Source: Sinorhizobium americanum (GTDB lineage: Bacteria; Pseudomonadota; Alphaproteobacteria; Rhizobiales; Rhizobiaceae). Taken from it: a stretch of 64,000 bases of DNA. The stretch covers positions 1-64,000 of the forward strand of contig NZ_LNQC01000056.1 in assembly GCF_001651855.1 (NCBI RefSeq). Direction: 5' to 3'. Of the stretch, positions 33,142 to 41,669 are shown in pieces (the stretch's first letter is position 1; each line of letters begins with the position of its first letter). A program made the position numbers and the translations under genes. The notes under the pieces were generated by a model. The model was not told the DNA's origin. It ran no database searches and saw only the letters and a program-made list of their open reading frames with translations.

Positions 33142-33365
33142 AGGAAGGCTGATCTGATTCTCGGCTGCCGGGGCCGGCGCAGGCATCGTTACGACGTTGC
33201 GTCGATACAGCAAACGCCTTTCAGATCAGCCCGTTAACGCATTCTTAACCAAATCCAGCTTCGCGCAAGCTTCAGCCCTTAGCTCGGACGGGCACGATGG
33301 CTGAAGGCAGGTTTGCCTCGCGCCTGGCGTTGATCGCTTCATCGTGCCAGTGACGGAGACGGTGG

Positions 33366-34016
33366 ATGGAGATTGCGAACAGGCTGACTGCAGCGACAAC
33401 CGGCGACGGTTTGGGCAATCTCGCCGGCCGTCCCGCCGGGCAGGTCGTCTCCGGAAGCAAGGACGACGGCGGTGTCCAGGCACCGCCCGTAAGCTTCTTT
33501 GACCCGTCGCCGCGCATCTCGCTGTCGGTCGATGCTTTGCTCTATCTCAGCCGGACAAGAAAGACGCCGGAGAAATTGCCGCCCTTGACCCGGGACGAAT
33601 GGAATAACACGCTTTCCCCGCAGCTTGCCGCGCGCGAATATCAGGCCTTCGGAAAACATGCCGAAACCAGCGACTACAGGGCCTACTACAGTTCCTTCAT
33701 CGACTACTATGACAATCTCCGACCGGAGGACCAGAACAGCCTGCGTTATTTCGGCACGAGGGAGGCGGCCCTGGCCGGCTTGCGCTCGCTCGAATACGAT
33801 GCCGGAAGCGGATTGGACACGGGCGGAAATTTCGAAAGGCTCGTCAGCGTCTTCCTGGACGAGGACAAGACTGTCACATCAGTCGGGTCCACCGACCTTC
33901 CGGTCCGCGAAACTCCTTTCGTCGGCTGGGACGTCGGCAGCATCAGCTATGAGGAGCAGCCGCCTGAATCGCGATCGCTGTCGGAAATCGAGCGCCTCTA
34001 TTCCGAGCTCCTTTGA
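33366..34016 (+). CDS. Conserved-type hypothetical protein
   Basis: No family recognised. A 216-residue soluble protein without signal peptide or membrane helix. The middle is rich in aromatic and acidic residues (SDYRAYYSSFIDYYDNLRPE) and the tail is acidic. Coding looks real: the ATG follows GGAGACGGTGG and codon use matches the neighbours. It sits between pcm and the nlpD-like gene, separated from each by 160-220 bases, so it may have its own promoter. A cell-envelope link is only suggested by position. Confidence 0.7.
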   Translation: MEIANRLTAATTGDGLGNLAGRPAGQVVSGSKDDGGVQAPPVSFFDPSPRISLSVDALLYLSRTRKTPEKLPPLTRDEWNNTLSPQLAAREYQAFGKHAETSDYRAYYSSFIDYYDNLRPEDQNSLRYFGTREAALAGLRSLEYDAGSGLDTGGNFERLVSVFLDEDKTVTSVGSTDLPVRETPFVGWDVGSISYEEQPPESRSLSEIERLYSELL

Positions 34017-36932: not shown

Positions 36933-37265
36933 ATGTTCATTACCGAAGCTTTTGCGCAGACTGCCGCGCCCGCCGCCGGCGGGGCCGACATTTTGATGTC
37001 CATCCTGCCGTTCATCCTCATCTTCGTCGTCATGTACTTCCTGATCATTCGCCCGCAGCGTGCGCAGATGAAGCGTCGCGAAGAGCTGTTGAAGAACATC
37101 CGCCGCGGCGATCAAATCGTTACCGGCGGCGGTATCATCGGCAAGGTGACGAAGGTCGTCGACGATGCGGAACTCGAAGTCGAAATCGCCGAGGGAACCA
37201 AGGTCCGCGTGGCCCGCAGCGGCGTGTCCGAAGTTCGCGTGAAGGGTGAGCCTGTCAAGGAATAA
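36933..37265 (+). CDS. yajC: Preprotein translocase accessory subunit YajC
   Basis: A 110-residue single-span inner-membrane protein associated with SecDF-YidC. A hydrophobic helix at about 20-38 leads into the signature YFLIIRPQRAQMKRREE, then the RGDQIVTGGGIIGKV domain. It precedes secDF by 48 bases, the usual arrangement. Confidence 0.96.
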   Translation: MFITEAFAQTAAPAAGGADILMSILPFILIFVVMYFLIIRPQRAQMKRREELLKNIRRGDQIVTGGGIIGKVTKVVDDAELEVEIAEGTKVRVARSGVSEVRVKGEPVKE

Positions 37266-37313: not shown

Positions 37314-39872
37314 ATGCCCAAGTTCTCGCCGCTGAAGAACACCCTGATCTGGCTGGTCGTTCTGGCCGGTTTTGCCTTTGCTCTGCCGAACATCGTTCCG
37401 AGGGAGCAGCTTGCCGGATGGCCGACGTGGCTGCCGCATCGGCAGGTGCCGCTCGGCCTCGATCTCAAGGGCGGCTCCGACATCGTCCTGAAGGTCGATC
37501 GCGACAGCATCGTTGCAGATCGGCTGGAAACCACGATCGCAGCGATTGCGCAGGCGCTGAGGAATGCCGATATCGGCTATACGGGTCTTTCCGGCAGCGG
37601 GCAGGAAATACAGTTTCGCCTTCGCGATACGTCGAAATCCGCGGCGGCCCGCAAAGCCTTCAGCGCACTCACCACGCCGGTTGAGGCACCAGATCGGCCT
37701 GCGAACCCGATCCGGGAATTGGTCGCTGACGAGACCACGGCGCAGGAGCCGGTTCGGCTGCGCCTGACGAATGAGGGCATCGATTTCCGGCTGTCCGCAG
37801 CGCTCACCCAGTCAATCGAAGCGGTACGCCGCCGCGTCGGGGAGGTGGTGGCCTTGGAGTCGGTGATCCGGCGCCGCGGCAGCGACCGCTTGAGCGTCCA
37901 GATACCCGGCTTGGAGGACCCGCAACGGCTCAAGGACCTCCTGGGCCAACGAGGCAGCGTCGCTTTCCGGTGGCTCGACCCATCGATGCCGGCGCAGCAG
38001 GCCCTCGACACACGGCCGCCCGCCGCCTCAGAAGTTCTCTATTCGCTGGACGACCCGCCGGTTCCCTATCTGGTCGAAAGGCAGGCCTTCGCCTCCGCCC
38101 AGGACTTTTCCGATGCGCAGCCCGGCATTGATCCCAAGACCGGCGAGCCCGTGGTCGATATCAAGATGACGGCCGAAGCGTCCCCGCGGCTCGCAACGCT
38201 GTCGCAAGCTGCGTCGAACCGGCAATTCGCCTTCGTGCTCGACGGACAGGTGGTCTCGACACCGGCGCTTGGCGACGTCATCGAAGGCGATATGGTCCGG
38301 CTCTCCGGCGACTTGTCGGAGGAGGGCGCGGAGAATCTCGCCGCTCTGCTGCGAGCCGGGCCGCTTCCGACCTCACTGACGGTCATCGAAGAGCGCACCG
38401 TCGGTCCGGAAGTCGGCACGGACGCGATCGCCAACGGCTTAACGGCCGGGTTGGCCGCGGCAGCTGCGGTCGCCGCCTGCATGATCGGGTTCTACGGTTT
38501 CTTCGGCCTTGTCGCCGTGGTCGCGGTGATCGTCAATCTCGTGCTCATCATCGCGGTGCTCTCCCTTCTCGGAATTACGCTGACCCTGCCGGGGATCGCC
38601 GGGATCATTCTCACGATCGGGGTGGCGGTCGATTCGAATGTGCTCATCTACGAGCGGCTGCGAGAGGAGGTGCGCAGCAGCAGTGAGCCGCTGCGCAAGG
38701 CCCTCGACAACGGCTTTTCGCGCGTTTTGAGGAGCATAGTCGATGCGAACCTGACGATGCTGATTGCGGGCGTCATCCTTTTCCTGCTGGGGACAGGGGC
38801 GATCAGCGGGTTTGCGGCGACGCTCGCCATTGGCAGCCTCACGACAATCCTGACGGCGCACAGCCTGACCCGCCGGCTGATCCGCGGATGGTATCGCCGC
38901 CGCCGGCCGAAACATTTACCCCGGGGCATTCGCACAGGCTTCTTTGCCGAAGCGGACATCCGCTTCATGGCCCTCCGCAATCCGGTGTTCATCCTGATGG
39001 CGTCGCTCTCGGTTGCTTCGCTCGTCCTGCTGGTCAGCCTCGGGCTCAACATGGGTGCCGACTTCAAGGGTGGTTCGCTCCTGGAGCTCCGGTCGAAGCA
39101 AGGCGCTGCCGACGTCGCGGACGTCCGCGCCCGCCTCGACGAGCTGAACCTCGCCGAGGTTCAGATCCAGGAGCTTGCCTCGGCGCGGGATATCCTGCTG
39201 CGCATCCCTTCGCAGGAGGCCGGCGACAACGCCGATCAGACCGCAATGGGGTTGGTCCGCGCCGAACTCGAAGATGACTACACCTTCCGGCGTGTCGAGG
39301 TCGTCGGCCCGGCGGTGTCCGGAGAACTGACGCGCGCCGGTTCACTCGCCGTCGCGGCGGCGATACTGGCGATTATCTTCTATGTCTGGTTGCGTTTTGA
39401 TTGGAAGTTTGCTGCCGGTGCCGTCATCACCACGCTGCACGACGTGCTGTTGACCATGGGCTTCCTGGTGTTGACCGGCATCGAATTCAACCTCGCGAGC
39501 CTCGCCGCGCTTCTGACCATCGTCTGCTACTCGCTGAACGACACGATGGTGATCTACGACCGCGTCCGGGAGAACCTTGCACGCTATCGGCGAATGCCGC
39601 TTTCGGTCTTGATCGACGCATCGATCAACCAGACCCTGTCGCGTACGATCCTTACGGCGATGACGACGGCACTGGCCCTCGTTGCGCTTTACCTATTTGG
39701 CGGGAGCCGCCTCGTGCAGTCCTTCAGCGCAACGCTCCTCTTCGGCGTGGTTATCGGAACGATTTCGTCGATCTATATCGCCGGGCCGCTGCTCATCCTC
39801 TTCAACCGCCGAAACAATCGTCTCGGACACGGAACGACGCCGCAGGGTACGGCAACGGGGAGGGCGGCCTGA
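37314..39872 (+). CDS. secDF: Fused SecD-SecF protein translocase subunit
   Basis: Uses the proton gradient to help complete Sec-dependent export. The 852-residue protein joins SecD (about 1-535) and SecF (about 540-852). The SecD part has an N-terminal helix, PLGLDLKGGSDIVL, the P1 periplasmic domain and TM2-6 with GVAVDSNVLIYERLREE. The SecF part has GADFKGGSLLEL and SLNDTMVIYDRVRENL. Together about twelve transmembrane helices. Fusion is known in some bacteria including rhizobia. The stop overlaps the next start by one base. Confidence 0.96.
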   Translation: MPKFSPLKNTLIWLVVLAGFAFALPNIVPREQLAGWPTWLPHRQVPLGLDLKGGSDIVLKVDRDSIVADRLETTIAAIAQALRNADIGYTGLSGSGQEIQFRLRDTSKSAAARKAFSALTTPVEAPDRPANPIRELVADETTAQEPVRLRLTNEGIDFRLSAALTQSIEAVRRRVGEVVALESVIRRRGSDRLSVQIPGLEDPQRLKDLLGQRGSVAFRWLDPSMPAQQALDTRPPAASEVLYSLDDPPVPYLVERQAFASAQDFSDAQPGIDPKTGEPVVDIKMTAEASPRLATLSQAASNRQFAFVLDGQVVSTPALGDVIEGDMVRLSGDLSEEGAENLAALLRAGPLPTSLTVIEERTVGPEVGTDAIANGLTAGLAAAAAVAACMIGFYGFFGLVAVVAVIVNLVLIIAVLSLLGITLTLPGIAGIILTIGVAVDSNVLIYERLREEVRSSSEPLRKALDNGFSRVLRSIVDANLTMLIAGVILFLLGTGAISGFAATLAIGSLTTILTAHSLTRRLIRGWYRRRRPKHLPRGIRTGFFAEADIRFMALRNPVFILMASLSVASLVLLVSLGLNMGADFKGGSLLELRSKQGAADVADVRARLDELNLAEVQIQELASARDILLRIPSQEAGDNADQTAMGLVRAELEDDYTFRRVEVVGPAVSGELTRAGSLAVAAAILAIIFYVWLRFDWKFAAGAVITTLHDVLLTMGFLVLTGIEFNLASLAALLTIVCYSLNDTMVIYDRVRENLARYRRMPLSVLIDASINQTLSRTILTAMTTALALVALYLFGGSRLVQSFSATLLFGVVIGTISSIYIAGPLLILFNRRNNRLGHGTTPQGTATGRAA

Positions 39873-40258
39873 TGGCAAAAGGCATCGAAATGCGCGAAGC
39901 GCACTTCCCAGGACGCGCGCCGATCGACGCTTACGGCAATGGCGGCTTCCGCTTCGCCGACATGTCGCACCGCGGCTCGGTGCTGATGCTGCCCTCCGGC
40001 GTCTATGCCTGGGACGTCGACGAGGGCGATCCATTGGCGATCGACAAATTTCGGCGCGTTCTTGAGGAGGCTCAAGCAATCGAAGTCCTGCTCGTCGGGA
40101 CCGGCCGCGACATCAGACCCTTGCCGGCGGATCTGAAGGCGACATTGAAAGCGGCCAATATATCGTCCGATCCGATGAATACCGGCGCGGCGGTCCGCAC
40201 CTACAATGTCATGCTGGCCGAATCGCGCGCCGTGGCTGCAGCCCTGATTGCGGTGTGA
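39872..40258 (+). CDS. Mth938-like (DUF498) protein, bacterial counterpart of NDUFAF3
   Basis: A 128-residue soluble protein. IDAYGNGGFRFAD opens the domain, LPSGVYAWDV lies in the middle, the core is IEVLLVGTGRDIRPLP, and the end is MNTGAAVRTYNVMLAESRAVAAALI. The pattern VVGTG...T-N...N--L-E-R-VAAALI matches mitochondrial complex I assembly factor NDUFAF3. Its start overlaps the secDF stop (TGATG) and its stop overlaps the next start (GTGA), so translation is coupled across three genes. A complex I assembly role is inferred from family and neighbours. Confidence 0.85.
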   Translation: MAKGIEMREAHFPGRAPIDAYGNGGFRFADMSHRGSVLMLPSGVYAWDVDEGDPLAIDKFRRVLEEAQAIEVLLVGTGRDIRPLPADLKATLKAANISSDPMNTGAAVRTYNVMLAESRAVAAALIAV

Positions 40259-41121
40259 TCGAGCGCCGAAGGAATTCCAGCGTGCAAGTGCCAGATGCCC
40301 AGATACTCGCGACACTGCGGGACACCGATCGTGATCGCTATCTTGCATGCCTGCTCGCCCCGCCGGAAAAGCGGCACTCGCTTGCCTGCCTCTACGCCTT
40401 CCATGCCGAGATCGCCCGCATCCGCGACCTGGTGCACGAGCCGCTTCCCGGCGAAATTCGGCTGCAATGGTGGCGTGACCTGCTGGAGAACCGTTCGGGG
40501 GGCGAGGGCCACCCGCTGGCGGAGGCGCTGCTTGCCTGCATTTCCGAGCATCATCTGCCCGTTGCGGTTCTGCAGAACATGATCGACGCGCGCATTTTCG
40601 ACCTCTACGACGACCCGATGGAGGACACGACGGCGCTGGAAGGCTATGCGGGCGAAACGGCATCCGCACTCATTCAACTGGCTTCTCTCACTCTCGACCC
40701 GGCGAATGCCCGAATGTCCGCAGATGCTGCCGGTCATGCCGGCGTTGCGCAGACGGTCGCCGGCCTTTTGCTACTCCTGCCGGTCCATTCTCGGCGCGGC
40801 CAGGTCTATTTTCCCGCCGACCTCCTGCGGGCGACCGGGCTCGACCGGGAGACGCTGTTGGACGGGCGCGACGAGGTCGCGATTGGCAGGGCCGTTCGCG
40901 CATTCTGCGGGCTCGGCCGCGATCATCTCGCCAAAGCGCGCAGTAGTTTGGATTCGATCTCGCCGCAGAATTTCTCGGCCTTCATTTCCGTTGCTCTTGC
41001 CGAGCCGGTGTTTGAGCGCGCCGAGGCCGCCGGAGCGCGGATCCTGCGGCAATCGATCCAGCCGCCCCAGTGGCAACGGCAATGGCGGATGTGGCGCGCA
41101 AGCCGCCGCCGGCGTTTTTGA
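40255..41121 (+). CDS. Squalene/phytoene synthase-fold protein, NDUFAF6-like
   Basis: A 288-residue all-helical prenyl synthase fold. The two Asp-rich catalytic motifs of true synthases are not intact: the first reads RDLVHE, and the second site reads VAGLLLLLPVHSRRGQVYFP without the DxxxD. Sequence landmarks (IRLQWWRDLL, HSRRGQVYFPADLL, HLAKARSS) parallel mitochondrial NDUFAF6, a complex I assembly factor. Hence it is probably a non-catalytic assembly factor rather than a carotenoid enzyme. The GTG start overlaps the preceding stop. Confidence 0.8.
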   Translation: MIERRRNSSVQVPDAQILATLRDTDRDRYLACLLAPPEKRHSLACLYAFHAEIARIRDLVHEPLPGEIRLQWWRDLLENRSGGEGHPLAEALLACISEHHLPVAVLQNMIDARIFDLYDDPMEDTTALEGYAGETASALIQLASLTLDPANARMSADAAGHAGVAQTVAGLLLLLPVHSRRGQVYFPADLLRATGLDRETLLDGRDEVAIGRAVRAFCGLGRDHLAKARSSLDSISPQNFSAFISVALAEPVFERAEAAGARILRQSIQPPQWQRQWRMWRASRRRRF

Positions 41122-41201: not shown

Positions 41202-41669
41202 ATGATGCTTTGGTTCATACTCATCGCTCTGGTTGCGTTCGTCGCCGCGTTTTATGTCTGGATGAATGCACGCGCCGAGCGCGACTCCAGCAATCCCGAT
41301 ACCGGTTCTGCCATGGTCGAGTTCGGCCGAGCCTTTCCGGATGAGGCAATCCGGGCGCTGCATTCGACTATCGATGGCAAGGCCATCTTTCTCCGCCTAC
41401 ACGACGGCAAGGCCGGCTTCATCCGGTCTCACGGCACCCATTACGTATGCCATGTCATTCATCCCGATAAGCTGCGGGTGAACAGCTCCGAAAGCGGGCA
41501 GGGGCTCATCGTCCATTTCCCGGATTTCGCCTATCTGGACAACAGCTTCGAATTTCGGACGGCGGCCGAGGCGGCAGAGGTCTCGCTGTGGCTGCTCGGC
41601 AGCTTCAGCCCGAAATCCGAGCTCGATGCACCGGTCGAAGAGAGAGCGGCGACGCAGACCACCGACTGA
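41202..41669 (+). CDS. Hypothetical membrane-anchored protein
   Basis: A 155-residue protein with one N-terminal membrane helix (residues 2-21, MLWFILIALVAFVAAFYVWM) and a soluble domain containing GKAIFLRLHDGKAGFIRSHG and a C-terminal acidic tail. No known family recognised. The ATG follows AAGGGGACGG. It lies 80 bases after the NDUFAF6-like gene and converges on trmFO with five bases between stops, so it may close the yajC-secDF transcription unit. Confidence 0.75.
   Translation: MMLWFILIALVAFVAAFYVWMNARAERDSSNPDTGSAMVEFGRAFPDEAIRALHSTIDGKAIFLRLHDGKAGFIRSHGTHYVCHVIHPDKLRVNSSESGQGLIVHFPDFAYLDNSFEFRTAAEAAEVSLWLLGSFSPKSELDAPVEERAATQTTD

Follow-up and report, generated by a model that had tools for sequence, protein, structure and literature searches.

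Known systems and the locus

NDUFAF6 (C8orf38) and its fungal relative NDU1 have the fold of the PF00494 family and are reported to be without DxxxD motifs (PMC8007014). That paper states that complex I assembly requires NDU1 and that NDUFAF6 acts in ND1 biogenesis, and it calls the actual job of NDUFAF6-like proteins unknown even in mitochondria. It also contains a tree, adapted from Lemire 2017, in which prokaryotic orthologues group with NDUFAF6/NDU1. Both the prokaryotic orthologues and the missing DxxxD motifs had thus been published before (PMC8007014, citing Lemire 2017). We analyzed a stretch of 64,000 nucleotides from Sinorhizobium americanum (contig NZ_LNQC01000056.1, hereafter the window), in which a run of genes beginning with yajC and secDF continues with a DUF498 gene and a gene for an NDUFAF6-like protein, which we call AF6.

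The DUF498 gene has the PF04430 domain, which we take to be that of the NDUFAF3 family from its Pfam membership. Homologues of NDUFAF3 have reportedly been described near secD/secF in alphaproteobacteria, and the original prediction for this DNA pointed to that neighbourhood for the NDUFAF3 (C3orf60)/Mth938-DUF498 family. The same family also holds the AAMDC-type C11orf67 (2ab1), which matches the window protein weakly (4.8e-6), and Thermus and Methanosarcina are among the control genomes that have members of it. According to a review, NDUFAF3 binds the Q-module intermediate (PMC7827222), and for the protist Andalucia both NDUFAF3 and NDUFAF6 are listed in PMC7050145.

Unlike NDUFAF6 and NDU1, AF6 is bacterial and stands in a yajC-secDF-DUF498 run; our comparison covered bacterial sequences only. 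AF6 shares its fold and Pfam family with HpnD and HpnC but differs from them in having no catalytic Asp motifs and in scoring far below the equivalog cut-offs. The yajC and secDF genes of the window are full members of the SecDF-YajC system; they are the first genes of the run, and we saw nothing unusual in them.

The last two of these four genes likely encode bacterial relatives of both human assembly factors, with AF6 the better supported of the two. We regard it as an even question whether AF6 is a bacterial counterpart of NDUFAF6 that helps to build the alphaproteobacterial type of complex I, whose NuoC and NuoD are not fused. A role in complex I is favoured because AF6 has no catalytic motifs, is kept in most larger-genome alphaproteobacteria with complex I, and was not found in one clade of a family described below. 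The published results on NDUFAF6 and NDU1 agree with such a role (PMC8007014). The features of the run are as follows.

36933..37265, forward strand: yajC, preprotein translocase subunit, opening the run (PF02699, 4.4e-28; TIGR00739, 86 bits against a cut-off of 44)
37314..39872, forward strand: secDF, fused SecD/SecF (NCBIfam NF011315, 1385 bits against a cut-off of 1249)
39872..40258, forward strand: DUF498/Mth938-type gene (PF04430, 2.6e-29 across the whole domain)
40268..40284, forward strand: translation signals of AF6, with GAAGGA (40268-40273) as ribosome-binding site and the GTG at 40282 as likely start, read from the sequence, with similar sites in loci L183-L187
40282..41121, forward strand: AF6, NDUFAF6-like, with a predicted squalene-synthase fold and no catalytic motifs (the mechanical open reading frame starts at GTG 40255)
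41202-41669, forward strand: open reading frame of 155 residues directly 3' of AF6, with no Pfam or NCBIfam match

The genes follow one another on one strand in this order, and the profile matches agree with the head-to-tail positions originally given for the secDF, DUF498 and PF00494 genes.

The AF6 protein

The PF00494 match covers the whole AF6 protein (residues 12-271, E = 7.9e-55; another search gave 8.8e-55), and the domain is common to all 49 aligned relatives. The window protein has A, R, D, L and H where the five catalytic Asp residues would stand, so that both DxxxD motifs are gone, as had been predicted. None of the five Asp residues is retained in 60 of the 74 AF6 segments, and Arg or Lys replaces the second one in 67 of the 74.

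All 32 AF6 rows in a tree of the family formed one alphaproteobacterial clade (Shimodaira-Hasegawa-like approximate likelihood ratio test, SH-aLRT, 100), distinct from a third group of synthases as well as from HpnC and HpnD. This was a quick, midpoint-rooted tree without bootstrap, in which 32 of the 62 full-length AF6 proteins were sampled. Three AF6 rows in it are tagged as having an active motif; these are regular-expression matches, and that of the window lies outside the motif site. With this rooting the AF6 clade lies on the HpnD side, away from HpnC, the labels having been checked by NCBIfam for a few members. AF6 reaches no NCBIfam cut-off; with the HpnD model TIGR03465 it scores 108 bits, and 278.6 are needed. 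Alignment with active DxxxD synthases had been named as the test that could refute the original prediction, and AF6 falls instead in a motif-less clade. It probably belongs to the squalene/phytoene synthase family as a dead enzyme. Its nearest named relative among the loci listed is that of S. glycinis, with 89% identity.

We also observed DDxxD synthase genes on the opposite strand near AF6 in L034, L035, L050, L057, L101, L112, L115 and L116. Those in L034 and L057 are HpnD and HpnC-type by NCBIfam, and in L112, L115 and L116 two DDxxD synthase domains lie within one open reading frame.

Outside the alphaproteobacteria, 69 genomes of other Pseudomonadota had a match (E<=1e-28), and no true AF6 was found among the 18 examined, which were taken mostly from the top of these matches. 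DDxxD was present in 16 of the 18 matches, and a second synthase frame occurred at 14 of the 18 loci. HpnD proteins from these genomes reached up to 175 bits on the AF6 model, and therefore score alone is no proof of AF6. Two proteins of the HpnD clade there, in L360 (G502) and L370 (G485), have no DDxxD, apparently lost independently of AF6; that of L370 is still above the HpnD cut-off.

Gene junctions and gene order

The secDF stop codon (TGA, 39870-39872) shares one base with the ATG of DUF498 at 39872, and this 1-nt overlap, as predicted, is seen in the sequence as TGATG. A similar overlap had been claimed between DUF498 and AF6. There, the conserved ribosome-binding site and the GTG at 40282 leave a gap of 23 nt, and the claim is not supported. 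Five relatives from Sinorhizobium/Ensifer (L183-L187) likewise have a ribosome-binding site of the GAAGGA or GAGGGA type and a GTG after the DUF498 stop. The start at GTG 40255 was set aside in view of these sites, which resemble the window's 40268-40284. That GTG comes from the last Val codon and the stop codon of DUF498 in a different frame, and the overlap is probably a reading-frame artefact.

We then compared gene order in two sets. The class-wide set consisted of 193 genomes with a completeness of 95% or more; 111 of them had DUF498, which gave 111 loci, one per genome, including the window. The stop of secF lay less than 300 nt from the start of the DUF498 domain in 103 of these loci, and same-strand AF6-type open reading frames occurred 3' of DUF498 in 73 (74 frames, 62 of them full-length). 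The second set consisted of the window and the best 80 of 574 relatives confirmed in a protein-pattern scan of named genomes (81 loci), and is thus one of close relatives by design. Here DUF498 preceded the AF6 domain by less than 250 nt in 77 of the 81 loci, with secDF upstream in 70. The remaining 11 comprised one locus ended by its contig and ten with yajC, DUF498 and AF6 but no secDF in the roughly 12.8 kb of sequence covered. The loci without secDF between yajC and DUF498 are L199, L200, L201, L202, L206-L209, L227 and L246. Adjacency of secF and DUF498, and that of DUF498 and AF6 in close relatives, is more than chance. Since yajC, DUF498 and AF6 are kept together in ten loci without secDF, the DUF498-AF6 pair is independent of the link to secDF.

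Distribution of AF6 and complex I

AF6 was also compared with complex I in family f19 (120 genomes), which we take to be the acetic acid bacteria and their relatives. NuoD was above cut-off in 106 of these genomes. A check for NuoL in the other 14 showed that four have complex I and ten have no NuoL match; that is, complex I is present in 110. The fused NuoCD (NF008728) was above cut-off in 20 genomes, 12 with the fused type only and 8 with both types; G212, G276, G225 and G284 are examples.

Of the 98 f19 genomes with unfused NuoC/NuoD complex I, 92 were scored as having AF6, among them all 8 with both types. It was found in none of the 12 genomes with fused NuoCD only and in none of the 10 without complex I. 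Four genomes with no NuoD above cut-off (G203, G210, G254 and G301) were counted as unfused because NuoL was present and the fused model was unmatched; when they are left out, the count is 88 of 94. Each of the 22 negatives, the genomes without the unfused type, shows a paralogue-level match to the family (E<=1e-20; at most 113 bits on the AF6 model), which means that the family was within reach of the search in them. Among the f19 proteins that were read, AF6 without DDxxD scores higher on the AF6 model, and the paralogues show the opposite.

For the positives, 32 of the 92 were read (the 20 best and 12 weak or partial ones), and the other 60 were accepted by scores of at least 147 bits. Six negatives were read as DDxxD enzymes (G197, G207, G209, G219, G227, G252), six were judged by match range (G187, G215, G245, G255, G266, G308), and ten by score (G212, G225, G232, G238, G276, G278, G284, G287, G291, G300; one match apiece at E<=1e-20). 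Every first-look candidate of the 22 negatives was scored, and for six of these genomes all matches down to 1e-8 were listed.

In an rpoB tree of 60 f19 genomes, chosen by us from the 120, the 22 genomes without unfused complex I formed one clade (support 99). AF6 was not found in this clade, which has the fused type only or no complex I, and this favours the complex I role. The 20 genomes with fused NuoCD, 8 of which also have the unfused type, look as if f19 had gained a second complex I that later took the place of the first in one clade. AF6 is distributed as would be expected of a factor for the unfused NuoC/NuoD complex I.

Some f19 copies of AF6 score low, mostly with a shortened match (L170, L172, L173, L175, L176, L179, L376). 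Two of these, L170 and L179, are in genomes with both complex I types, as if the constraint were relaxing.

In the class-wide set, NuoD was found in 177 of the 193 genomes at E<=0.001 (166 above cut-off). Both DUF498 and AF6 were unfound in all 16 genomes without NuoD. The 177 NuoD-bearing genomes divided into 95 with both genes, 16 with DUF498 only, 21 with AF6 only and 45 with neither. Among NuoD-bearing genomes of at least 2.55 Mb, 86 of 106 carry both, and the two genes co-occur above expectation (Fisher p 0.026, relatedness ignored). AF6 was counted in 116 of the 193 genomes at E<=1e-30 with at most 13 candidates scored per genome, a number that may include HpnD paralogues and may miss degenerate copies. 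Such paralogues may be present in G052 and G142, where NuoD is below cut-off, NuoL has no match, and the AF6 model matched unread sequences with 119 and 115 bits; these matches are probably HpnD.

The host genome (6.65 Mb) has two NuoH matches, one DUF498 match and one AF6 match (E<=1e-30).

The DUF498 protein

The nearest solved relatives of the DUF498 protein are 2fi9 and 2fvt, and it matched no NCBIfam family. By family it is a plausible NDUFAF3-type partner of AF6. In f19 it was above cut-off in only 2 of the 120 genomes and below it in 96 of the 98 with unfused complex I; at E<=0.001 it had no match in 117 of the 120, although 110 genomes of the family have complex I. Therefore unfused complex I there manages without DUF498, and the distribution lends no support to a strict requirement of complex I for it.

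Evidence against the proposed role, and rival explanations

The DUF498 counts in f19 already weigh against the proposed role, and so do the following results. Both genes are often lost while complex I is kept, as in the 45 NuoD-bearing genomes of the class with neither. Genome size is a confounder: 15 of the 16 genomes without NuoD are below 1.85 Mb, and below this size 27 of 35 NuoD-bearing genomes are also without both genes (Fisher p 0.16 for DUF498 and 0.54 for AF6). If the matches in G052 and G142 were AF6, they would be cases of AF6 without a normal complex I. In f19, the single rpoB clade means that the association of AF6 with unfused complex I amounts to one event, and AF6 changes seven times on that tree, with up to six further scored losses while unfused complex I is kept. 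At least one of these is a degenerate AF6 counted as absent, in G246. Ten of the 22 negatives there were judged by score alone. Moreover, the degenerate AF6 of G246 reached only 76 bits, and similar copies could therefore hide in the 22 negatives. Like G246, two further unfused genomes scored as lacking AF6, G193 and G234, have N-terminal AF6-model matches (84 and 88 bits, unread). AF6 directly adjoins DUF498 in only 13 of the 111 class-wide loci, and in L068 and L091, two class loci of one genus, yajC adjoins DUF498 with no secDF between. Finally, a table in the review cited above assigns squalene/phytoene synthase activity to NDUFAF6 (PMC7827222).

The original prediction was an ancestral complex I module of both factors coupled to the SecDF insertion motor. 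Its AF6 part agrees with the distribution, as one event; DUF498 appears to track complex I poorly. The coupling to SecDF is weak, as secDF is gone from the ten yajC-DUF498-AF6 loci and from L068 and L091; a physical or functional link to SecDF is unsupported, gene order being its evidence and that order being broken in several genomes.

Both proteins could instead be general helpers of the export machinery that handle membrane proteins or lipids, with complex I as one client or none. The adjoining of secF and DUF498 in 103 of 111 loci would agree with this, as would the small genomes, which are mostly without both genes whether they have NuoD or not. However, AF6 was unfound in all 22 f19 genomes without unfused complex I, and ten loci keep yajC, DUF498 and AF6 without secDF. 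We consider such a general function rather unlikely.

The neighbourhood might also be a historical accident, in which AF6 serves complex I and DUF498 has another task, with no shared module. We scanned ten open reading frames between DUF498 and AF6, several of which are on the opposite strand and some of which may not be genes. One encodes a superoxide dismutase, four have a urate-oxidase-like domain and five had no match; this mixture, the direct adjacency in 13 of 111 loci and the separate losses (21 AF6-only and 16 DUF498-only genomes of 177) are what an accident would leave. The co-occurrence in larger NuoD-bearing genomes and the pair that stays intact where secDF is gone speak against it, and we think this explanation unlikely.

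An active synthase of hopanoids or carotenoids (HpnD, HpnC or CrtB) as the product of the last gene is hardly credible and was rejected, since AF6 misses the HpnD cut-off, has lost the catalytic Asp residues, belongs to its own clade, and has DDxxD paralogues of the HpnD and HpnC types beside it in L034 and L057.

Surroundings of the run

Upstream on the same strand, Pfam matches were found to ScpA, an ABC ATPase, two TatA/B-type proteins, TatC and seryl-tRNA synthetase, and further to SurE, PCMT and an M23/LysM peptidase. A frame of 220 residues at 33354-34013, between the pcm-like and M23/LysM peptidase genes, has no Pfam match and may be no gene. The opposite strand carries a DUF815 ATPase gene and, downstream of the run, a GIDA-family gene. 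A scan for promoters and terminators gave no promoter-like site (0.7 expected) and 7 sites resembling terminators (4.5 expected), and its result was not used.

Proposed mechanism and significance

For AF6 as a complex I factor, the data show the predicted fold, the missing catalytic residues, the clade of its own, the kept gene order and a distribution that agrees with complex I; its client, ligand and function are inferred. AF6 may sit at the membrane on its cytoplasmic side, where its former prenyl pocket could hold a lipid, a quinone precursor or a hydrophobic helix. It would then support the maturation of NuoH (ND1) or help NuoH to join the Q module. In some lineages this module might be held by the DUF498 protein, which others could do without. 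In close relatives both genes lie in one run with yajC-secDF.

We further speculate, and hold it to be doubtful, that NDUFAF6 and NDUFAF3 were neighbours already in the alphaproteobacterial ancestor. NDUFAF6 would then be a former hopanoid-type synthase in which the Asp residues for Mg-diphosphate were changed to Ala and to Arg or Lys, leaving a metal-free pocket for a lipid or prenyl phosphate; it would aid the folding of NuoH in the unfused complex I only, and not in that with fused NuoCD.

In the open-access papers searched we found no description of the joint locus, of the Asp-to-Arg/Lys change or of the contrast between fused and unfused types, and no paper linking NDUFAF3 with SecF; most subscription papers were outside the scope of this search.

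The gene order hints that some of the assembly factors of mitochondrial complex I may have been inherited as neighbouring genes. A bacterial counterpart would make NDUFAF6-like function directly testable in genetically easy organisms, and there is a natural lineage that apparently lost AF6 together with the unfused complex I. The subunit that AF6 assists and the ligand of its one-time active site could be sought in this way, and the conserved Asp-to-Arg/Lys change is a concrete target for mutation.

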